DNA from: Mycolicibacterium cosmeticum | Lineage (GTDB): Bacteria; Actinomycetota; Actinomycetes; Mycobacteriales; Mycobacteriaceae | DNA length: 64,000 nucleotides | Reading direction: 5' to 3' | NCBI RefSeq assembly: GCF_000613185.1 | Contig: NZ_CCBB010000003.1 | Location: 2,232,001 to 2,296,000, forward strand | Part shown: piece by piece, positions 35,225 to 60,997 of the stretch | Position numbering within the stretch: the first letter of the stretch is position 1 | Layout of the letters: each line of letters starts with the position of its first letter | Translations under genes and position numbers: made by a program | The notes under the pieces: model-generated | The model's input: only the letters and a program-made list of their open reading frames with translations | The model's database searches: none | What the model was told of the DNA's origin: nothing

Positions 35225-35382
35225 CAGCCGTCTGGCCTCCGGAAAGACTCGACTCAGTTTTTTCTCAGGAAAAGCTGGCCCTCTATTGACGCACGTGTTA
35301 ACTTTCGCGACAGTCAATTAAGAACCCGCTGGACATGCCGCTGCCCTGCGGCCACCCGGCTGGGGAGTCGGGAAGGAAAACC

Positions 35383-38300
35383 GTGGCGGCTCATCGCAAG
35401 AGTTCAGCGAAAACCCGGAAACGTGCTAGCGAGTTCGCAGTCGCTGCATTCCTGGGGTTGTCGGTCGCGGCCGCGCCCGCCATCGCGGCGGCGGACACCG
35501 GCGACAACACGCCGAACGGCGATGCCTCACCGGGGTCATCCGGCAGCACCGGCGGGACCACGGGCACCGGTAGCGGCACCGGCACTGCGGGAGCGGGGAC
35601 AAGTACCACCGGCACTGCCGGCTCCACCACCGGCACCAGCACCGAGACCTCGGGTTCGACCGGTGGTGGCACCACCGGGACCGGATCGGGCCAGACCGGT
35701 TCCACCACGCACGAGACGAGCACGTCCGGTTCCACCGGGACGACCACCACCACGAGTGTGAACGGCGGCCCCACCACGACGGTGAGCAGCTCGGGTGGCG
35801 CGCACACCGGGACGGCGGGCACGTCCGGCACCGGCACGAGCACGGGCACCGGCACGAGCACCGAAACGCCGGTTGTCGAGGAACCCGGTGCCGGGTCGAC
35901 CCCGACCACCGGCTCGACCCCGAGCACCGAACCCACGCCGACCCCCACGGCCGAGCCCACGCCGACCCCGACCACCGAACCGACCCCGAGCGCCGGCGCC
36001 GAGCAGCCGGCGGTGACCGGCACCTCGTCCTCCAGCACGCCCACCGCGTCCGGGGCCAAGACCACGACGGCTGCGACGGCACCGGCACTGTTCAGCGCGT
36101 CGGCCACCACCCCGACGCCCAATGCCCTGGCCGCGGTCACCGACCTGGTGCCCAAGCCGCCGACCATCCCGGCGTTCAACCCCTTCATGGGCATCATCAA
36201 CGCGATTGCCACCGGCCTGGAGAAACTGCTGCCGGCCTACGACGCCGACCCGATCCTGGCGCCCTCCCAGGTCGCCGCCGGCTGGGTGGTCGCGATCAAC
36301 CAGATCCTGGCGGGCACCTACTGGAACGGCGCCCCCACGCCGTTCACGGTGCCGGTCTACATCCTGATGGTCGCGGCCTACCAGCGCTACGAGAACCTGG
36401 CCACCAACCACCTGCCGGGCGCCCCGTCCGTCGTCGCCACCGGGCCGCTGCCGGGCACCTACAAGCTCACCAGCAACGATCCCGACGGCGACCCGCTGAC
36501 CTACTGGGTGGACAGCCAGCCCAGCCAGGGTGCGATCGTGATGATTCCCGACGGCTCGTTCAGCTATGTGCCCACCCTGGCCGGGCTGCGCGACGGCGCC
36601 GATGTCACCTTCACCGTGCGCATCAACGACAGCCTCGGCTTCCTCGCGCACCCGCTCACCCCGGACGGCAACGACGCGTACTACACGGTGAGCTTCCACT
36701 ACGCCGGCAGCGGGCTGAACAACCTGCCCGAGTTCGACTCCGACGGCGCCCCGACCGTCGTCGCGGTCAACCAGGTCACCGGCATCGTCACCGGCACCTC
36801 ACATGCCACCGATCCGGACGGCGACACCCTGACCTACTCCGGAATCGCCTTGTACGGCAACGTCGTCGTCAACTCCGACGGCTCGTTCACCTACACGCCG
36901 ACCGACCTGGCCCGGCACACCGCCGCCGGAGACCTGGCCGCCTCGCTCGGGTTGAACAAGGACCTGGTGACCATCACCGTCAACGACGGCCGTGGCGGTA
37001 TCGCGTTCAAATCCGTTGCGGTGGACGTGGTTCCGTCCAACGCGGGGCCGACCGTCGACAAGGTCACCGTGGGGGACCCGAATGCCCTGCTGGGCACCGT
37101 GATCGGCAAGATCACCGCGCACGACGACGACGGCGACATCATTTCCTACGGACCGGTGCTGCTCACCACGAGCAAGGGCGGCGTGGTCGCGGTCAGCCTG
37201 CTCACCGGCGACTTCACCTACACCCCGTCGCTGGCGGCGCGGCACGCCGCGGCCGCCGACGACGCCACCGACGACGACAAGTCGGACACCTTCACCGTCA
37301 CCCTCACCGACGGGCACGGCGGCAGCACCCAGGTCGAGATCACCGTGGGTGTCGCCCCCGGCCTCGATCTCAACTCGGCCCCGGTCTTCACCTCCAACCC
37401 GACGGTGACCAACACCAACCCGAGCACCGGCGTGGTGACGGGAACCTTCACCGTCAAGGACGACGACGGCGACACCCTGCACTATCTCGTGACGAACCTG
37501 CTGGGCCCGCTCACCGGTTCGGTGACGCTCAACGGTGGCACCTTCACCTACACGCCCACCGCCTCGGCCCGTCACCTGGCGGCCAGCATCCCGCTCACCG
37601 ACACGGTGACCATCACCGTCACCGACGGGCACGGCGGGATCACCATCAAGTCGGTGGCCGTCTCCATCCTGTCCGACAACTCGGCGCCCCAGGTCACCAA
37701 TGTGCAAGTGGGCAGCCCGAATTCGCTCGGCATCGTGACCGGCAAGGTCACCGCGGGCGACCCCGACGACGGCGACATCATCAGCTACGGGCCGATCACC
37801 TTCACCACCGGCAAGGGCGGCCTGGTCACCGTCGGCGCCCTCACCGGCACCTTCAGCTACGCCCCCTCGCTGACGGCCCGGCACCTGGCCGCCTCCACCA
37901 CGGCGACCGCGGACGACAAGTTGGACACCTTCACCATCACGGTGAGCGACGGCCACGGCGGCACCATCGACGTGCCCATCTCGGTGGACATCCTGGGCGC
38001 CAACACCGATCCGGCCGGCCTGCCCAGCATCAGCCTGCCCGACTCCAACGGCGTGGTGCGCGGCAGCATCATCGGCACCGACCTGGACGGCGACTCGCTG
38101 ACCTACAGCCTGGTCAACGGATCCAACCCGACGGGCGCCACCACCGGCTCGTCGTACTCGGTGGGCGGCGGCATCGTACAGCTGGCGGCCGACGGCACCT
38201 ACACGTTCATCCCGAAGCCGTCCACGGCGGTCATCCCGGGCCTGGACACCGACTCGTTCTACGTCACCATCACCGACGGCCACGGCGGGACCTCGACGGT

Positions 38301-40191
38301 GAAGGTGACCCCGCTGGCCAACCTCACCATCGGCACCTCCACCACCTCGACCGCGCCCAACGTGGAGAGCGGCAAGCTCAACGTCTCCAACGGCAACACC
38401 GGGCTGCTCACCTACAGCCTGGGTACCAACGCGGCCAAGGGCACCGTGGTGGTCAACGCCGACGGCACCTACACCTACACCCGGAACCCGGCGCTGGGTC
38501 ACAACATCACGGCCGCCGACACGTTCACGGTGCTCGGCACCGATGCGAACGGCCGCACCATCACGGTGGCGACCGTCAGCGTGTCCCCGCCGCTGGTCAA
38601 CACCGCGCCGTCGGCCGGAGGTGCCGGCACCACCATCTCGGACAGCAGCCTGATCGACCGCGGCATGATCGGCGGTGTCGCCGTCACCCCGGCCACCCAG
38701 ACCACCACCGGCACGTTCACCACGACCGACCCCGACGGCGATCCGGTGACGTTCGCCGGCGGGATCTACACCACCACCAAGGGCGGGACCGTCACGGTCA
38801 CCTCCGGCGGCGGCTTCCTGTACAGCTGGATCACCTACTCCGACGCGCACCACAAGGCCGCGGCCGACAACGCCCCGGTGTCCGACAAGTTCGACACCGT
38901 CACCATCAACGTGTCCGACGGTCAGGGCGGCACGACGGCCGTCACCTTCTCGGTGCCGATCATCGCCAGCAACGCCGGGCCGTCCTCGAACGTGTCGGTC
39001 GGGTCGGCCGACACCCTGGGTGTGGTGCGCGGGTCGGTCTCGGGGTCGGACAGCGACGGGGACTCCGTCACCTACAGCCTGGTCAACGCGGGCAATCCGG
39101 GCGGGGCCACCACCAACTCCACCTACACCACCAACGGCGGTGTGGTGCAACTGAAGCCGGACGGCACCTTCGTCTACATCCCGACCACCTCGGCGGCCGG
39201 CACCGACTCGTTCAAGGTCACCGTCTACGACGGGCACGGCGGCAGCAGCACCGCCACGGTCAGCGTCCCGATCGTGGCGCCCAGCACCACGACGCTGGGC
39301 ACGGGCACCAACGTGCAGAGCGGCAAGCTGAGCATCCCGACCGCCGACGTGGGTCTGCTGACCTACGGCAAGGGCTCCGACGGCGCCAAGGGCACCGTGG
39401 TGGTCAACGCCGACGGCAGCTACACCTACACCCGCAACGCCGCGCTGGGCCACTCCACCACGCCCAACGACACCTTCACCATCACCGGCACCGACGCCAA
39501 CGGCAAGACGGTGACATTCACGGTGAGCGTGGCGCCGCCGGTGGCCAACGCGGCGCCCACGGGTGGCAGCGTCACGATCACCAGTTCGTCGCTGAGCAAC
39601 TACGCGCTGATCTACAACCGCCAGTCGACATCGGGCTCGATCGGTGCATCCGATGCCGACGGCGACTCGGTGACGTTCACGGCGGTATCCGATCTCGACA
39701 CCACGAACGGCGGCAAGGTCACCGTCTACGCGAACGGGACGTTCTCGTACACGATCGACAAGCTGCTGGCCAGCTCCTACTACCACGACGCCGCCAAGAT
39801 CGGGGCCACCGGCAACACCGTCGCCGACTCCTTCACCGTGACGATCAAGGACGCGTTCGGCGGTAGCACCGACTATGTGGTGAAGGTGCCGATCTACGCC
39901 GTGAACAGTGCGCCCAGCCAACCCAGCTCCGGCGTGTTCTGGGGACTGGGCGCCAACGACTGGACCTCGGTGTCCTCCTCGGACGGTGACAATGACTCGC
40001 TCACCTACACGATCACCAAGGCGCCCCAGCACGGCTCGGCGTCGTATGACAAGACCCTGGCAATCCTCAACACCAGCAACACCCAGTCCGGTGACACCAT
40101 CACCCTCACCGTGACCGACGGCTACTACGTCGTGAACAACGGTGTGGTCACCTCGACGCCCGCCAGTGCGTCCAGGACCTACACCGTCTGA
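35383..40191 (+). CDS. Giant secreted VCBS/cadherin-like repeat protein
   Basis: A 1602-residue exported protein. Residues 1 to about 35 are a signal peptide with a basic start (AAHRKSSAKTRKRASEF) and cut near AIAAADT. A Thr/Gly/Ser- then Pro/Thr-rich linker fills about 38-245. A helical block follows at about 247-343 (includes NPFMGIINAIATGLEKLLPA), then about twelve beta-sandwich repeats to the end. These carry the calcium-site type motif DxDGDxLxY, NADGSFTYTP strands and a closing DxVTITVxDGHGG. No LPXTG or membrane anchor is visible at the C-terminus. I chose GTG 35383 because GGAAGGA precedes it. ATG 35335 would put 16 residues before the signal peptide. Likely a surface adhesin or matrix protein; partner unknown. 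Confidence 0.88.
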   Translation: MAAHRKSSAKTRKRASEFAVAAFLGLSVAAAPAIAAADTGDNTPNGDASPGSSGSTGGTTGTGSGTGTAGAGTSTTGTAGSTTGTSTETSGSTGGGTTGTGSGQTGSTTHETSTSGSTGTTTTTSVNGGPTTTVSSSGGAHTGTAGTSGTGTSTGTGTSTETPVVEEPGAGSTPTTGSTPSTEPTPTPTAEPTPTPTTEPTPSAGAEQPAVTGTSSSSTPTASGAKTTTAATAPALFSASATTPTPNALAAVTDLVPKPPTIPAFNPFMGIINAIATGLEKLLPAYDADPILAPSQVAAGWVVAINQILAGTYWNGAPTPFTVPVYILMVAAYQRYENLATNHLPGAPSVVATGPLPGTYKLTSNDPDGDPLTYWVDSQPSQGAIVMIPDGSFSYVPTLAGLRDGADVTFTVRINDSLGFLAHPLTPDGNDAYYTVSFHYAGSGLNNLPEFDSDGAPTVVAVNQVTGIVTGTSHATDPDGDTLTYSGIALYGNVVVNSDGSFTYTPTDLARHTAAGDLAASLGLNKDLVTITVNDGRGGIAFKSVAVDVVPSNAGPTVDKVTVGDPNALLGTVIGKITAHDDDGDIISYGPVLLTTSKGGVVAVSLLTGDFTYTPSLAARHAAAADDATDDDKSDTFTVTLTDGHGGSTQVEITVGVAPGLDLNSAPVFTSNPTVTNTNPSTGVVTGTFTVKDDDGDTLHYLVTNLLGPLTGSVTLNGGTFTYTPTASARHLAASIPLTDTVTITVTDGHGGITIKSVAVSILSDNSAPQVTNVQVGSPNSLGIVTGKVTAGDPDDGDIISYGPITFTTGKGGLVTVGALTGTFSYAPSLTARHLAASTTATADDKLDTFTITVSDGHGGTIDVPISVDILGANTDPAGLPSISLPDSNGVVRGSIIGTDLDGDSLTYSLVNGSNPTGATTGSSYSVGGGIVQLAADGTYTFIPKPSTAVIPGLDTDSFYVTITDGHGGTSTVKVTPLANLTIGTSTTSTAPNVESGKLNVSNGNTGLLTYSLGTNAAKGTVVVNADGTYTYTRNPALGHNITAADTFTVLGTDANGRTITVATVSVSPPLVNTAPSAGGAGTTISDSSLIDRGMIGGVAVTPATQTTTGTFTTTDPDGDPVTFAGGIYTTTKGGTVTVTSGGGFLYSWITYSDAHHKAAADNAPVSDKFDTVTINVSDGQGGTTAVTFSVPIIASNAGPSSNVSVGSADTLGVVRGSVSGSDSDGDSVTYSLVNAGNPGGATTNSTYTTNGGVVQLKPDGTFVYIPTTSAAGTDSFKVTVYDGHGGSSTATVSVPIVAPSTTTLGTGTNVQSGKLSIPTADVGLLTYGKGSDGAKGTVVVNADGSYTYTRNAALGHSTTPNDTFTITGTDANGKTVTFTVSVAPPVANAAPTGGSVTITSSSLSNYALIYNRQSTSGSIGASDADGDSVTFTAVSDLDTTNGGKVTVYANGTFSYTIDKLLASSYYHDAAKIGATGNTVADSFTVTIKDAFGGSTDYVVKVPIYAVNSAPSQPSSGVFWGLGANDWTSVSSSDGDNDSLTYTITKAPQHGSASYDKTLAILNTSNTQSGDTITLTVTDGYYVVNNGVVTSTPASASRTYTV

Positions 40192-40308: not shown

Positions 40309-42500
<2,192 letters not shown>

Positions 42501-42526
<26 letters not shown>

Positions 42527-42992
42527 CCTCGTCCGCGCCGCCGCCCTCGGCCGCGCAGACGACGAACCCCAAACTGTCGTAGACGGCGCGCGCACGGGCG
42601 TTGTCGACGTTGACCCGCAGCGTGACCCGCCGCACCCGCTGGGTGCGCGCCCAGCGCACCGCTTCGGCCACCAGCGTCCGGCCCAGGCCCAGCCCACGAA
42701 CGGACGGGTCGAGCCACAGCGAGTACAGGTAGACGGTCTCCGAACCCTGGCGCTGCGCGGCGATCAACCCGATCGGCCGGTTGTCCACCACGATGGCGAA
42801 CTGCGCATGCGCGCGCAGCCTGCGGCGCCACTGGGCGGCGGTGAAGGTGGACTCCCGCTGGAACTGGGGATCGTCGGTGCCCAGCGAGTCGGTGAGCGCA
42901 CGCAGCCGAACCCCGGCGAAGGCACGCCAATCGGTCTCGGTCAACCGGGCCACCCGCGCGTCGCCCATCTCCGTGCCCGTGCCGTGCGCCAT
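42501..42992 (-). CDS. GNAT family N-acetyltransferase
   Basis: A 163-residue acetyltransferase (155 if the ATG at 42968 is used). The acetyl-CoA motif is LWLDPSVRGLGLGRTLVAEA (R-G-x-G-x-G), followed by VTLRVNVDNARARAVYDSLG and GF. ARLTETDWRAFAGVRLRALTD at the start is typical of GNAT proteins acting on small molecules. It is divergent from the murL operon with 40 bp between starts. Substrate unknown. The frame is open further upstream, but that part is antisense to the divergent gene. Confidence 0.85.
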
Positions 42993-43022
42993 GGTGTCCA
43001 GTATCGCCGCTGCTGGCTGCGG

Positions 43023-43028
43023 TAGGAT
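43023..43028 (+). promoter_or_regulatory. Candidate -10 box for the murL-murD2 operon
   Basis: TAGGAT fits TANNNT and lies 4 nt before the ATG at 43033 and 10 nt before the in-frame ATG at 43039. No convincing -35 is seen. If transcription starts near 43036-43038, the second ATG would be the first codon used. Confidence 0.35.
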
Positions 43029-43032
43029 CGGC

Positions 43033-43773
43033 ATGTCGATGACTACTCCCGCGTTCGTATCCACCTCGGCTGACGGCCTCTCCGGAAGCGACACACCGCT
43101 CGTCTCGGCCACCGCACTCATCGGGGGTCTCGGTACCCAGCCCACCGTCACGCTCCCGGTCGTGACCCGCCGCGAACCCGATCACGACGCCATCTGGCAC
43201 TGGCTGGCCGAGCCCGCGGAGTTCTTCGGCGTCGCCATGCCCGCCGTCGACGGGTTGCGCCGAGCGATCACCGACGTCATCGACGAACTGCGGCGCACGC
43301 ACGGCACCGCCACCGCGGCGCTCACCGTCCTGGTCGCGGACGTGGCCGGGGCGCCCCACTTCGTGGTCACCGGGACGCCGATCGAACCGGTCCGCGCGCG
43401 GGCGGTCGGCCTGGCCACCCGGCCCGGCGCCGCGGCGCCGCCGTACTGGCAGCGGATGGCCGCCCGCACCACCAGCCGGGCCGATGCACTGCTGACCGAA
43501 CGCGAGCTGGCCGGCGCCGGCCTCGCCGACGCGGTACCGGCCGACGGGCAGCGGATCGGGGTGCCGCTGTTGGGGGCGCTGTTGTGCGAGACCGGTGCTG
43601 GTCGGATCGGGCTGGGCACCGACCGGCTGCGCTGGCTGCGCGCGGCCGGGCTGCTGGACACCGACACCGTCACCGACGACCCGGTCGACCTGGACGCCGT
43701 GCGGCGGGCGTGGTGGGTGTCGCCGGTGTTCGAGACCCATCCGGTGAGCGCGATCGGGGACCGCCGGTTATGA
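43033..43773 (+). CDS. Lysine-free protein upstream of murL, possibly a degenerate class-IV aminotransferase fold
   Basis: A 246-residue protein (244 from the ATG at 43039). Segments such as WLAEPAEFFGVAMPAVDGLR, a middle TVLVADVAGAPHF and a C-terminal WWVSPVFETHPVSAIGDRR resemble the layout of class-IV aminotransferases and aminodeoxychorismate lyases. However, I find no lysine in the whole protein, so it cannot hold pyridoxal phosphate as a Schiff base. It may be a non-catalytic relative, or the resemblance may be chance. Its stop overlaps murL (ATGA), so it belongs to the MurL/MurD2 operon. Confidence 0.7.
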   Translation: MSMTTPAFVSTSADGLSGSDTPLVSATALIGGLGTQPTVTLPVVTRREPDHDAIWHWLAEPAEFFGVAMPAVDGLRRAITDVIDELRRTHGTATAALTVLVADVAGAPHFVVTGTPIEPVRARAVGLATRPGAAAPPYWQRMAARTTSRADALLTERELAGAGLADAVPADGQRIGVPLLGALLCETGAGRIGLGTDRLRWLRAAGLLDTDTVTDDPVDLDAVRRAWWVSPVFETHPVSAIGDRRL

Positions 43774-45089
43774 GCGCCTTCCGTCCCGAGACCTTCGACG
43801 CGCTGGTGATCGACGGGTACCAGTCCAGCGATGGCACGCTGAAACTGCAGTACACCCTGCGCGGCCCCGATCCGGTCAGCTTCACCGAGGTGATCGATTT
43901 CGGCGCGAGTCTGGCCGGCGCCCAGCCGCATCCGCTGTTGGCCCGGTTGCTGGCGCTCACCTGCTCGCTGAGCTACTACAAGGCCGCCGCCCCGCCGCGA
44001 ATCGAAATCGCCTTTCCCACCTACGAATTCGAGAAGGTGTACCTGCGCCGGCTGGTCGAGGGTGGGTTGGGGGAGTTCGCGTACCGCAACGACCTGCCCG
44101 CCGCGCTGAGCCCGGAGGTCACCGGCCCGCAGGACGAGGTGACCGAGATCGCCACCGACACCTGGGATCCGGGCGCCACTCCGCTGGTGCCCGTCGGCGG
44201 TGGCAAGGACTCGGTGGTGAGCATCGAGGCGTTCCGCCGGCACGGGGTCAAGCCGGTGCTGTTCAGCGTCAACCGGTATGACCCGATCGACCGCTGTATC
44301 GAGGTCAGCGGACTGGACAGCGTGCACGTGCGGCGCAGCATCGACCGTCGGTTGATCGAGGCCAACGCCAACGGCGCCCACAACGGCCATGTCCCGGTGA
44401 CCGCGATCAACAGTGTGATCGGCCTGATCGTGGCCGACGCCAACGGTTTCGGGCCGGTGGTGCTGTCCAACGAACGCTCGTCCAATGTGGGCAACGTCGA
44501 GTGGCTGGGCCGGGACATCAACCACCAGTGGTCCAAGAGCATCACCTACGAGACCTTGCTGCGGGACACACTGGCGCAATACGGGCTGAGCCCCGACCGG
44601 TACTTCTCGCTGCTGCGCGGGCTGTCCGAATCGCAGATCGCCGACCGGTTCGCCACCTGCACCGACTATTTCGGCGTCTTCACCAGTTGTAACCGGCTGT
44701 TCGCGCTGGATCCCGCCCGCCGTGCCACGTCGTGGTGCGGGCACTGCCCGAAATGCCAGTTCGTGTTCGTATTGCTGGCTCCCCGGCTCGGCCGCGCCCG
44801 TCTCGAAGAGATCTTCGGCACCAACCTGTTCGGTGACCCCGGCCAGCGGGACGGTATCGCCGACATCCTCGGCCTCGGTGTGCACAAACCGTTCGAGTGT
44901 GTGGGGGAGTACTACGAGGCGGCCGAGGCGATGCTGACCGTGCTGGACGACGACAGCTGGCACGGTCTGCCCCTGATCGACGAATTCGGCTCCCATCGCA
45001 GCGAATTGGAGGCTGTCGCGGCCGGGCAGGACAGCACGCCGGCCGAGCATCACATCCCGCCGCGCTACGCGAAACTGCTCGATGACTGA
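43770..45089 (+). CDS. murL: UDP-MurNAc-L-Ala-L-Glu epimerase MurL
   Basis: MurL epimerises the terminal L-Glu of UDP-MurNAc-L-Ala-L-Glu to D-Glu in an ATP-dependent way. The 439-residue protein has a PP-loop-like GGGKDS at residues 143-148, ANGAHNGHVPVTAINSVIGL, LSNERSSNVGNV, DINHQWSKS, FTSCNRLF, the cysteine cluster CGHCPKC at 323-329 and KPFECVGEYYEA. These are landmarks of the MurL family as I remember it. The call is strengthened by the overlapping MurD2 gene. It starts at ATG 43770 over the preceding stop and overlaps murD2 by 8 bp. Confidence 0.88.
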   Translation: MSAFRPETFDALVIDGYQSSDGTLKLQYTLRGPDPVSFTEVIDFGASLAGAQPHPLLARLLALTCSLSYYKAAAPPRIEIAFPTYEFEKVYLRRLVEGGLGEFAYRNDLPAALSPEVTGPQDEVTEIATDTWDPGATPLVPVGGGKDSVVSIEAFRRHGVKPVLFSVNRYDPIDRCIEVSGLDSVHVRRSIDRRLIEANANGAHNGHVPVTAINSVIGLIVADANGFGPVVLSNERSSNVGNVEWLGRDINHQWSKSITYETLLRDTLAQYGLSPDRYFSLLRGLSESQIADRFATCTDYFGVFTSCNRLFALDPARRATSWCGHCPKCQFVFVLLAPRLGRARLEEIFGTNLFGDPGQRDGIADILGLGVHKPFECVGEYYEAAEAMLTVLDDDSWHGLPLIDEFGSHRSELEAVAAGQDSTPAEHHIPPRYAKLLDD

Positions 45090-46383
45090 CCTGGCGGGTC
45101 GGGTCGTCGGCATCTGGGGGCTGGGCAAGGAGGGGCTGTCGATGGCCCGCACCGCGGCCGCGCACGGCGCCCAGCGCATCGTCGCGGTCGACGACCGGGC
45201 CACCGAGTTGCCGGCCACCGACATACCGGGGATGACAGCACATTTCGGTCCCGACGCGGTGCACCTGTTGCGCGACGTCGACATCGTCTTCGTCAGCCCC
45301 GGGGTGCCGTGGCGGCATCCGGTGTTCGAGGAGTTGCGCCGCGGCGGGCCGCAGGTGTCCAGCGCCGCCGACTGGTTCCTGAGTGCGCACGGGGGGCGCA
45401 CCATCGGCGTCACCGGCACCAAGGGCAAGAGCACCACCGCGGCGTTTCTGGCCCACCTGCTGACCAGCCTGGGCGCCTCCGCCGTGGTGGCGGGCAACAT
45501 CGGCACGCCGCTGTCGGATTTGTCGGGGTCGGACCTGGACGCTGAGCCCGGCCGCTGGGTGGTCGCCGAACTGTCCAGCCAGCAGTGCGCGCTGCTGAGC
45601 ACCTCACCGGCGGTGGCCGTGATCACCAACCTCTACCAGGACCACCTGGATTTCCACGGCGACGTCCCGAACTACTACGCGGCCAAGGCGCACATCTTCG
45701 ACCACGGGGCGCGGGCGCTGATCACCACGCCGGAGGTGGTCGCGGCGCTGGACGGCATCGGGATCACCGCGCTGCCACCGGTGCTGCGGCTGGTCGACCC
45801 GGCGACCGCGCGGGCACCGGGTTCTGGCGGCGTGATGTGCTACCCGCACAACGTGGCCAACGCCGCGCTGGCCGCCCACGCCGCCGCCGAGGTGCTCGGC
45901 AGGCCGGTCACCGACGCGGAACTGGACGCGGCCGCCGCCACTTTCGCCGGACTGCCGCACCGGCTGCAGACGGTACGCACCACCGGGCCGACCCGCTGGA
46001 TCGACGACACGCTGGCCACCACGGGCGAGAGCGTGGTCGCCGCGCTGCGCGCCCTGCCGGCCGGCGAGCACGTGGCGCTCATCGTCGGCGGCATGGACCG
46101 CCGGCTCGACTACCGCCCGCTCGACGACTACCTGTGCAGCGGGCAGCGCCGGGTGACGCTGATCCAGGGACCGTCCAACGGCGCGCTGATCGGGGCCCGG
46201 TTCGCCCGGTCGCATCCCGACCGCACCCACCCGGTGCAGACCCTGGAGCAGGCCGTGCGGCTGGCCGCGGGCCTGCCCGGCGTCGATGTGGTGCTGTTGT
46301 CGCCCGGCGCGGCCAGCTACGACATCTACCGCAATTACGAAGCCAAGGCCGCGGCGTTCTGCGGTTACATCGACACGCTCTAA
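45082..46383 (+). CDS. murD2: UDP-MurNAc-L-Ala:L-glutamate ligase MurD2
   Basis: MurD2 is a Mur ligase that adds L-Glu, not D-Glu, to UDP-MurNAc-L-Ala. The 433-residue protein has an N-terminal Rossmann domain (VVGIWGLGKEGLSMARTAA), the central ATPase loop GTKGKSTT at residues 112-119, the ligase segment NLYQDHLDFHGDVPNYYAAK with the ADP/Mg ligands, and the C-terminal domain with WIDDTLATTGESVVAALRAL and SPGAASYDIYRNYEAK. The L-Glu specificity is inferred from its pairing with murL. Canonical murD lies in the dcw cluster, not here. Confidence 0.88.
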   Translation: MTDLAGRVVGIWGLGKEGLSMARTAAAHGAQRIVAVDDRATELPATDIPGMTAHFGPDAVHLLRDVDIVFVSPGVPWRHPVFEELRRGGPQVSSAADWFLSAHGGRTIGVTGTKGKSTTAAFLAHLLTSLGASAVVAGNIGTPLSDLSGSDLDAEPGRWVVAELSSQQCALLSTSPAVAVITNLYQDHLDFHGDVPNYYAAKAHIFDHGARALITTPEVVAALDGIGITALPPVLRLVDPATARAPGSGGVMCYPHNVANAALAAHAAAEVLGRPVTDAELDAAAATFAGLPHRLQTVRTTGPTRWIDDTLATTGESVVAALRALPAGEHVALIVGGMDRRLDYRPLDDYLCSGQRRVTLIQGPSNGALIGARFARSHPDRTHPVQTLEQAVRLAAGLPGVDVVLLSPGAASYDIYRNYEAKAAAFCGYIDTL

Positions 46384-46386
46384 CCT
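46381..46386 (+). promoter_or_regulatory. -10 box of a predicted leaderless uvrC transcript
   Basis: TAACCT fits TANNNT, lies 6 nt before the uvrC GTG and includes the TAA stop codon of murD2. No ribosome binding site is present. It suggests uvrC has its own promoter independent of the murL operon. Confidence 0.45.
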
Positions 46387-46392
46387 GGACCC

Positions 46393-48447
46393 GTGCCCGA
46401 TCCAGCGACGTACCGGCCTGCGCCGGGTTCCATCCCGGTGGAACCCGGTGTCTACCGTTTCCGGGATCCGCACGGCCGGGTGATCTACGTCGGCAAGGCC
46501 AAGAGCCTGCGCAGCCGGCTGAACTCCTATTTCGCCGATATCGCGGGGCTGGCGCCGCGGACCAGGCAGATGGTGATGACGGCGGGCAGCGTCGAGTGGA
46601 CCGTGGTGTCCACCGAGGTCGAAGCGCTGCAGTTGGAATACAACTGGATCAAGGAGTTCGACCCGCGGTTCAACATCCGCTACCGCGACGACAAGTCGTA
46701 CCCGGTGCTGGCGGTGACCCTCAACGAGGAATACCCGCGGTTGTTCGTCTACCGCGGCCCCCGCCGCAAGGGTGTGCGCTACTTCGGCCCCTACTCGCAC
46801 GCCTGGGCCATCCGCGAGACCGTCGACCTGCTCACCCGGGTGTTCCCCGCGCGCACCTGCTCGGCGGGAGTGTTCAAGCGGCACAGGCAGATCGACCGGC
46901 CCTGTCTGCTGGGCTACATCGACAAGTGCTCGGCGCCGTGCATCGGCCGGGTCAGCGCCGAACAACACCGCCAGATCGTGCTGGACTTCTGCGACTTCCT
47001 GGCGGGCAAGACCGACCGGCTGGTCCGCGACATGGAGCGGCAGATGAACGCCGCGGCCGAGGAACTCGACTTCGAGCGGGCCGCGCGGCTGCGCGACGAC
47101 ATCGGGGCGCTCAAACGCGCGTTGGAGAAGCAGACCGTGGTTTTCGGCGACGGCACCGACGCCGACGTGGTGGCCTTCGCCGCCGACGAGCTGGAAGCAG
47201 CGGTGCAGGTGTTCCACGTCCGAGGTGGCCGGGTGCGCGGTCAGCGGGGCTGGGTGGTGGAGAAGACGGCCGAACCCGAGGCGGCCGAAAATGGCTCGGA
47301 CGCCGGGCAATCGGCCGAGGCGCAGCTGGTCGAACAATTCCTCACCCAGTTCTACGGTGACCAGGCCGAACTCGGCGACGGCGCCGCCGACCAGGACGAG
47401 GCCACCAATCCGGTGCCCAAACAGGTACTGGTGCCGGTGCTTCCGGACAATGCCGACGAACTCGCCGACTGGCTGTCCGGATTGCGCGGGTCGCGGGTGT
47501 CGCTGCGGGTTCCGGTCCGCGGCGACAAGAAGGCGCTGGCCGAGACGGTGGCCCGCAATGCGAAAGAGGCACTGGCGCAGCACAAACTCAAGCGTGCCGG
47601 TGACTTCAACGCGAGATCCGAAGCGCTACAGAGCATCCAGGATGCGCTGGCGCTCAACGACGCTCCGCTGCGCATCGAATGCGTGGACATCAGCCACGTG
47701 CAGGGCACCGATGTGGTCGCCTCGATGGTGGTGTTCGAGGACGGGCTGCCGCGCAAGTCCGATTACCGGCATTACGCCATCCGGGAGGCCGCCGGCGGCG
47801 GCCGCTCCGACGACGTGGCCTCCATCGCCGAGGTGACCAGGCGCCGGTTCGCCCGGCACATCGCCGACGCCGAGCGGCCGATGGTGGCCGAGGGCCGGTC
47901 ACGGCGCTTCGCCTACCCGCCGAACCTGTACGTCGTCGACGGCGGCGCACCGCAGGTGAACGCCGCCGCCACCGTGCTCGACGAACTGGGCATCACCGAC
48001 GTCGCGGTGATCGGTCTGGCCAAACGGCTGGAAGAGGTGTGGGTGCCTTATGAAGCGGATCCGGTGATCTTCCCGCGCAACAGCGAGGGCCTGTACCTGC
48101 TGCAGCGCGTCCGTGACGAAGCCCACCGATTCGCCATCACCTATCACCGCAGCAAGCGTTCCAAGCGGATGACGGCCTCGGCGCTGGATTCGGTCCCCGG
48201 ACTGGGGGAGCACCGGCGCAAGGCCCTGGTCACCCATTTCGGATCGGTGTCCCGGCTGTCGGCGGCCAGCATCGAGGAGATCACCGCCGTGCGCGGCATC
48301 GGAGTGGCGACCGCGCGGGCGGTGCTGGAGGCACTGGGCGCCACCGGAGGCGACGCGGGCGCTGCCGATTCGGGCGCGGCAGCCGCCGTTATCGACAATG
48401 ATCGACACCACCAAGATCAACCCAGTAACCAACAGGCATCGGGGTGA
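46393..48447 (+). CDS. uvrC: Excinuclease ABC subunit C
   Basis: UvrC makes both incisions of nucleotide excision repair. The 684-residue protein has an N-terminal GIY-YIG nuclease ([20 protein letters not shown]), a UVR/UvrB-binding helix pair ([20 protein letters not shown]), an RNase-H-like C-terminal nuclease ([34 protein letters not shown]) and terminal helix-hairpin-helix repeats. All catalytic regions are intact. GTG at 46393 starts MPDPATYRP. The stop overlaps rapZ as GTGA. Confidence 0.97.
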
Positions 48448-60004: not shown

Positions 60005-60997
60005 TTGGGGTCCCAGCGTCAGGCGTTGACGATGATCGAGTTGTCCCGGTCTAGCTGGTACTACCGATCGCACCCGCGCAGCAGGGTCTGCGATCCGGTG
60101 CCGCAGAAGGATCGGGGGTACCCCTCACGCATCGGTTCCGCTGAGCGCGCGAGGATCGAAAGCGAGATCCTGGCTGGCTGGATGGCTGGGGTCTCGGTCG
60201 ATCACGCCTTCGCCACGGCGTGGGATGCCGGGGTGCTACTGGCCTCGCGGCGATCGTGGTGGCGCATTGCGGCGGCGATCAACGATCAAAGTGCACGTCC
60301 GCTCGCGCCGACCCGCAGGAAGAACACCACACCCCGTCCGGTGCCGGTGCTCAAAGCAACTGGTCCCCAACAGGTTTGGAGTTGGGACATCACCGACCTG
60401 CGTACCCCGTGGCGAGGTGTGGCGTTCAAGGCGTACTCGATCATCGACATCTACTCCCGCAAGATCGTGGGCTGGCGGGTCGAGGAACGTGAATGCGATG
60501 ACCTGGCCGTGGACATGTTCGAGGCGGCGTTCGCCGATCACGGACTGCCCGCTGTGGTGCACGCCGATTCCGGGCCGGCGATGCGTTCGAGCGCACTCAA
60601 GGACCTGCTGGCCGACCTCGGCGTCGGACAGACCCACAACCGGCCCCACGTGAGTAACGACAACCCGTTCTCCGAATCGGAGTTCCGGACCATGAAGTAC
60701 CGGCCCAACTACCCCGGTGTCTTCGATCATCTCGATGCCGCCCGAGCCTGGGTGAGCGCCTATATCGGCTGGTACAACACCCACCACCGCCACAGTGGCA
60801 TCGCGCTATTCACTCCCGACCAGGTGCACAGCGGAGCGTGGACCCGGCAATGGGAACGCCGCGATCACGCTCTCCAGACCTACTACAACACCCATCCCGA
60901 ACGGTTCCGAAACCGCCCGCACACCAAGACGCCCAACCTCGTCGTTGGGATCAACCTGCCCGCCGAAAACGAGCACAACCGACTCCACGCAGCTTGA
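60005..60997 (+). CDS. IS3-family transposase OrfB (DDE catalytic domain)
   Basis: The catalytic transposase, 330 residues from the TTG at 60005. DDE residues are Asp128 in WSWDITDL, Asp188 in VHADSG and Glu224 in NDNPFSESEFRTMKY, with the D-35-E spacing of IS3-family rve domains. The coding frame clearly extends upstream of the TTG (RFLDLENRLVVELTAALGSQ), so the native product is probably a frameshift fusion with OrfA. The catalytic triad is intact. Confidence 0.9.
   Translation: MGSQRQALTMIELSRSSWYYRSHPRSRVCDPVPQKDRGYPSRIGSAERARIESEILAGWMAGVSVDHAFATAWDAGVLLASRRSWWRIAAAINDQSARPLAPTRRKNTTPRPVPVLKATGPQQVWSWDITDLRTPWRGVAFKAYSIIDIYSRKIVGWRVEERECDDLAVDMFEAAFADHGLPAVVHADSGPAMRSSALKDLLADLGVGQTHNRPHVSNDNPFSESEFRTMKYRPNYPGVFDHLDAARAWVSAYIGWYNTHHRHSGIALFTPDQVHSGAWTRQWERRDHALQTYYNTHPERFRNRPHTKTPNLVVGINLPAENEHNRLHAA

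Follow-up and report, generated by a model that had tools for sequence, protein, structure and literature searches.

The stretch of DNA analysed here (the window; 64,000 nucleotides from Mycolicibacterium cosmeticum) carries three overlapping genes, a transaminase-like gene that we call the third gene, murL and murD2. We consider it very probable that, in one lineage of fast-growing mycobacteria, this three-gene operon has taken the place of murI and murD. MurD2 would add L-glutamate to UDP-N-acetylmuramoyl-L-alanine (UDP-MurNAc-L-Ala) and MurL would then epimerise the added glutamate, both reactions being assigned to M. cosmeticum by analogy with the enzymes of Xanthomonas oryzae, Micromonospora and Salinispora described in the literature. 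The third gene, murL and murD2 are presumed to be co-transcribed in that order.

Identification of MurL and MurD2

The murL gene (43770..45089, + strand) was recognised by its match to NCBIfam family NF041275 (MurL; E 6.4e-95, 318 bits), its invariant columns and its PP-loop-like structure model. The GGGKDS PP-loop motif is located at 44196..44213, the CGHCPKC motif at 44736..44756 and the KPFECVGEYYEA motif at 44886..44921, all on the + strand. Our alignment of 39 MurLs from mycobacteria, other actinobacteria, Xanthomonadales and candidate phyla, every one of which (39/39) matches NF041275, has 42 invariant columns that include the PP-loop residues and five cysteines, and the window protein carries all 42. 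An earlier reading of this DNA made from its letters alone (the sequence-only reading) had named one member of a gene pair MurL; the family match and the invariant columns bear this identity out, with epimerase activity as a prediction. By MurL, the closest named relatives are Mycolicibacterium cosmeticum (97%) and M. canariasense (95%).

The AlphaFold model of MurL has a predicted local distance difference test score (pLDDT) of 94.6, and the fold matches listed for it include the PP-loop ATPases QatC (9y01, E 3.6e-7), TtuA (5b4f, E 2.0e-3) and QueC (3bl5, E 5.6e-3). The model resembles the fold of these enzymes with template modelling scores, by query length, that are modest (0.42, 0.21 and 0.30 respectively), and a sequence search of the PDB with MurL returned no match at E<=1. 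Adenylation and formation of adenosine monophosphate are reported for the Xanthomonas enzyme in the available text of PMC8788868, and a PP-loop ATPase-like fold would suit this chemistry.

The murD2 gene (45082..46383, + strand) encodes a homologue of UDP-MurNAc-L-Ala ligases that is predicted, from TIGR01087 and its position in a tree, to add L-glutamate. Its match to TIGR01087, the general MurD model, is 256.8 bits against a cut-off of 212, so that the profile comparison proposed for both proteins led from MurL to NF041275 and from MurD2, over the cut-off, to TIGR01087. A quick tree of 56 rows, in which long branches were flagged, placed all 14 mycobacterial MurD2 rows in one clade inside the MurD2s of MurL loci, apart from canonical MurD. 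The nearest neighbours of the window protein were observed to be Gordonia and then a Propionibacteriaceae metagenome-assembled genome (MAG), and not mycobacterial MurD. Clustering with canonical MurD, which the sequence-only reading had regarded as fatal to its proposal, was therefore not observed; the choice of L- over D-glutamate is a prediction.

Loss of murI and canonical murD

The M. cosmeticum genome is rated 100% complete, and a search of it with the MurI model (TIGR00067) gave no match at E<=1e-3. The MurD cut-off is passed only by the MurD2 beside murL, and in the division and cell wall (dcw) cluster murX is followed by ftsW with no murD between them. The suggested look for murI and dcw murD in the full genome thus found neither. 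The sequence-only reading had allowed for either a redundant or a replaced racemase; the absence of murI and canonical murD points, at the level of sequence, to replacement of the canonical route, and a redundant second route to D-glutamate was rejected on the same absence. Two PF01177 proteins are encoded in the genome. They were rejected as MurI candidates as they matched no glutamate racemase model, and their neighbours resemble, by eye, a transporter and an allantoinase-type amidohydrolase.

Our sample of the genus consisted of 297 evenly drawn genomes, 32 with MurL and 265 without. MurI over the cut-off (147 bits) was found in 261 of the 297, which corresponds to none of the 32 genomes with MurL and 261 of the 265 without it. 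The remaining four genomes without MurL are G003, G259 and G274 (72, 55 and 80% complete), which gave no match, and G252 (97% complete), which gave a partial one. Canonical MurD (E<=1e-70) was found in 257/297 genomes, namely 257 of the 265 without MurL and, among the matches listed, 0 of the 32 with it. Canonical MurD is missing from eight genomes without MurL: for G086, G097 and G126 this was seen directly in the table, while G188, G212, G259, G267 and G278 were counted from their absence among the matches listed. Weak MurI-model matches (67-109 bits) in the genomes of loci L142, L144, L145 and L146 were taken to be another racemase-like family.

A search of 80 genomes recovered FtsW in 79, the exception being G008 (70% complete). 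We compared the dcw stretches of M. cosmeticum and 30 other genomes with MurL (L110, L148-L177) with those of 30 of the 48 genomes without MurL from the FtsW search. The murX-ftsW interval lacks murD in 31/31 genomes with MurL, measuring 205-403 bp in 26 of them and 1109-1213 bp in five, whereas it measures 1508-1718 bp and holds murD in 30/30 genomes without MurL. A short sense-strand stretch resembling the end of MurD was detected by tblastn in all 31 intervals of the MurL genomes (33.5-52.4 bits); among 310 shuffled intervals the top score was 30.4 bits. As this stretch occurs in 31/31 intervals, the ancestral murD appears to have been deleted with its 3' end left as a relic. Among the five long intervals (L173-L177), two (L173 and L175) were seen by eye to have a lipoprotein-like open reading frame (ORF) ahead of the relic. 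The relic is alike in place and extent across the 31 intervals, which is odd for the end of a dead gene, and an overlap with regulatory DNA of ftsW is possible.

Distribution and history of the route

The survey of other mycobacteria proposed by the sequence-only reading gave MurL in 32 of the 297 genus genomes, with the cassette conserved between a PH-domain gene and uvrC. Both flanks are present in 31 of the 32 mycobacterial loci, locus L015 stopping short of uvrC, and uvrC is located about 2 kb farther from the cassette in L012, L013 and L035. A set of 11 named mycobacterial genomes was also searched (M. canariasense, M. neoaurum, M. frederiksbergense, M. bacteremicum, M. llatzerense, M. 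arenosum, M. hodleri, M. yunnanensis, M. sediminis, M. aurum and Mycolicibacterium sp. P9-22). MurI was over the cut-off in 0/11 and a single MurD-class gene, located at murL, was over the cut-off in 11/11.

Outside the genus, Gordonia alkaliphila (L032) combines MurL and MurD2 with a MurI of 160 bits, which exceeds the cut-off. No further MurD exceeds the cut-off there, and this is perhaps an intermediate state. The MurI model found no match in the Propionibacteriaceae MAG, Dactylosporangium fulvum or Asanoa ishikariensis (0/3). In D. fulvum (L038) a distance of several hundred kb separates murL from the sole MurD-class gene over the cut-off, and linkage of the pair is thus not universal.

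A tree of MurX and FtsW (IQ-TREE, quick) placed the 31 genomes with MurL in one group with a support of 87, not starred, and FastTree on the same alignment placed them in two groups. A single origin of the swap is probably to be favoured, and one gain together with one loss of each old gene would be the simplest reading.

The third protein

The third gene (43033..43773, + strand, with an alternative start possible at 43039) encodes a protein that resembles transaminases of fold type IV, which use pyridoxal 5'-phosphate (PLP), and lacks the PLP lysine. The start at 43033 that the sequence-only reading had given to the murL-murD2 pair belongs to this ORF, which went unmentioned there; murL begins at 43770. 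No Pfam or NCBIfam family was matched at threshold, although the fold is like that of the PLP fold-type IV transaminases: Pfam Aminotran_4 was found only below threshold, the profile match to CpuTA1 has an E of 8.7e-7, and the fold matches listed for the structure model (pLDDT 88.6) are PLP fold-type IV (D-amino acid) transaminases. Rv0812 of M. tuberculosis and CpuTA1, both of that class, possess the Schiff-base lysine. In the third protein an arginine codon (43465..43467, + strand) is aligned with the CpuTA1 lysine, and across 104 rows this position is Arg in 102, Asp in one, Gln in one and Lys in none. Since the catalytic lysine occurs in 0/104 rows, we do not class the third protein as a transaminase; it looks like an inactivated one.

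We tentatively propose that the third protein would serve MurL and MurD2 without PLP catalysis, its likeliest part being that of a scaffold or of a sensor of glutamate or product. It is also quite possible, if short of probable, that the third gene is a passenger which entered as part of the cassette or became established next to it and is unrelated to the glutamate step. Examination of 47 other MurL loci, Gordonia among them, did not find it, which indicates that elsewhere MurL and MurD2 function in its absence, and its product is less conserved than MurL (34-52% against 64-80% identity across loci L006-L031 and L033-L035). A mere passenger, however, would not be expected from a distribution identical to that of murL (32 of the 297 genomes) and a position next to it in 32/32 mycobacterial loci, nor from its overlap with the start of murL in the window and the 19 positions that are invariant across 30 members.

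Glutamate-site residues and alternative explanations

Three residues of the window MurD2 were located by alignment, all on the + strand. Asp187 (45640..45642) corresponds to Asp182 of E. coli MurD and Glu197 of X. oryzae MurD2, a leucine (46012..46014) stands at E. coli MurD Lys319, and Arg340 (46099..46101) corresponds to E. coli MurD Lys348 and X. oryzae MurD2 Arg358. In E. coli numbering, all MurD2 rows that have a residue at the position show Arg at 348 and Leu or Ile at 319, and Lys occupies both positions in 12 canonical mycobacterial MurDs. Asp182 was observed in 33/33 mycobacterial MurD2 rows (the window and 32 loci) and also in Gordonia, L053, L070, L073 and L079. According to the available text of PMC8788868, E197D or R358K altered the stereospecificity of X. 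oryzae MurD2 and the two combined gave a D-glutamate enzyme, while K319T allowed E. coli MurD to accept L-glutamate. The L-glutamate-type specificity envisaged by the sequence-only reading is thus favoured by Arg at 348 and not by the second published residue, where Asp replaces the Glu197 of Xanthomonas. We regard Asp182 as the chief argument against a simple transfer of function from Xanthomonas and treat it as a candidate variant.

This MurD-type residue would suit a different scheme, which we consider unlikely, where free D-glutamate is still made by an Rv0812/PabC-type transaminase or a PF01177 racemase and is used by MurD2, with MurL correcting mis-added L-glutamate. Rv0812 interconverts D-alanine and D-glutamate, and a murI deletion grows again when the M. 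smegmatis orthologue of Rv0812 is overexpressed (PMC8105722, available text); in addition, M. cosmeticum encodes the two PF01177 proteins. However, these two proteins match no glutamate racemase model, the MurD2-type combination of Arg348 and Leu319 (Leu or Ile at 319) recurs in every row with a residue there, and the genes retained are murL and murD2, canonical murD and murI having been lost.

Several points weigh against replacement of murI and murD by the three genes. The window MurD2 lacks Glu at X. oryzae position 197 and has the MurD-type Asp, the very change (E197D) that altered stereospecificity in X. oryzae MurD2 (PMC8788868, available text). The MurL score of 318 bits lies below the curated cut-off of 700 of NF041275, a model named for Xanthomonadales. 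Matches to the MurI model below its cut-off were observed in four of the 32 genomes with MurL (67-109 bits; G070, G251, G290 and G295) and in M. sediminis (104.8 bits), and D-glutamate could still come from Rv0812-type transaminases, which are able to make it. Furthermore, the genomes with MurL probably form one clade, so the counts are not independent and represent one history kept in 32 genomes instead of 32 trials.

That murI and murD are present and were missed through assembly gaps or divergence beyond the models is highly improbable: a divergent racemase would evade the models, and weak matches do occur in four of the 32 genomes with MurL, but the genome of M. cosmeticum has a completeness rating of 100%, direct reading covered the murX-ftsW junction of 31 genomes with MurL, and identical searches recover murI in 261/265 and murD in 257/265 genomes without MurL.

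Organisation of the locus

The third gene and murL overlap by 4 bp, and murL and murD2 by 8 bp. The two ORFs, their overlap and the motifs quoted by the sequence-only reading are all present, and the position it gave them between a PH-domain gene and uvrC agrees with the ORF coordinates. The bPH_6 (PH-domain) gene (42050-42526) forms the 5' flank, a divergent GNAT gene (about 42501-42993) lies between it and the third gene, and uvrC (46393-48447) follows murD2. A scan of 42450-46500 for promoters and terminators found none. The corresponding place in M. tuberculosis is presumably occupied by lprH and Rv1419.

Elsewhere in the window, an ORF of 1618 amino acids (35335-40191) with long Thr/Ser/Gly-rich and repeated stretches looks by eye like a large surface protein, and an ORF at 60005-60997 resembles, also by eye, an insertion sequence integrase-type transposase.

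Comparison with known systems and implications

The MurD2/MurL pair of X. oryzae is XOO_1320/XOO_1319, with orthologues in Micromonospora and Salinispora; the actinobacterial holders listed in the available text of this review (PMC8788868) are Micromonospora, Actinoplanes, Verrucosispora and Salinispora, and Mycobacterium is absent from that list. Two reviews that treat MurL/MurD2 were found. The word Mycobacterium does not occur in the available text of PMC5808125, and no paper on a MurL/MurD2 route in mycobacteria was found among open-licence PMC texts. The mycobacterial system is like that of X. oryzae in having the two families side by side, the invariant residues of MurL and Arg at MurD2 position 348, and in the lack of a murI-model match and of a canonical murD. 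It differs in having Asp for Glu at 182/197 and Ala for Pro at 414/433 of MurD2, in the third gene that is always upstream in mycobacterial loci, and in the relic left by the displaced murD. MurD2 shares with the mycobacterial and E. coli MurDs the Mur ligase domains, the same step and a TIGR01087 match above the cut-off, but it falls in a separate clade, has Arg and Leu for Lys348 and Lys319, and is encoded outside the dcw cluster and not between murX and ftsW.

Among the NCBI-named records listed, MurL goes under the name of hypothetical protein, and MurD2 is mostly labelled either D-glutamate ligase or Mur ligase family protein, so the swap is easily overlooked. Some mycobacterial proteins carry the automatic name MurL in UniRef and JGI, and some MurD2s are named L-glutamate ligase in JGI and in one NCBI MAG record. 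As automatic MurL names already exist, the identity of the gene is not new, and the route itself was already known; new as far as we have seen are the complete swap, the relic of murD, the variant with Asp182 and the third gene.

MurI and MurD are regarded as drug targets and as invariable steps in the making of mycobacterial peptidoglycan. The lineage with the apparent swap includes M. neoaurum, M. canariasense, M. frederiksbergense, M. llatzerense and M. hodleri, and since both steps are seemingly swapped, compounds directed at MurI should miss it, while MurL and MurD2 could be selective targets. The natural combination of Asp182 and Arg348 provides a testable variant for the choice between L- and D-glutamate in MurD enzymes, and the third protein, with its likeness to transaminases, is a candidate cell-wall factor that as yet has no name.

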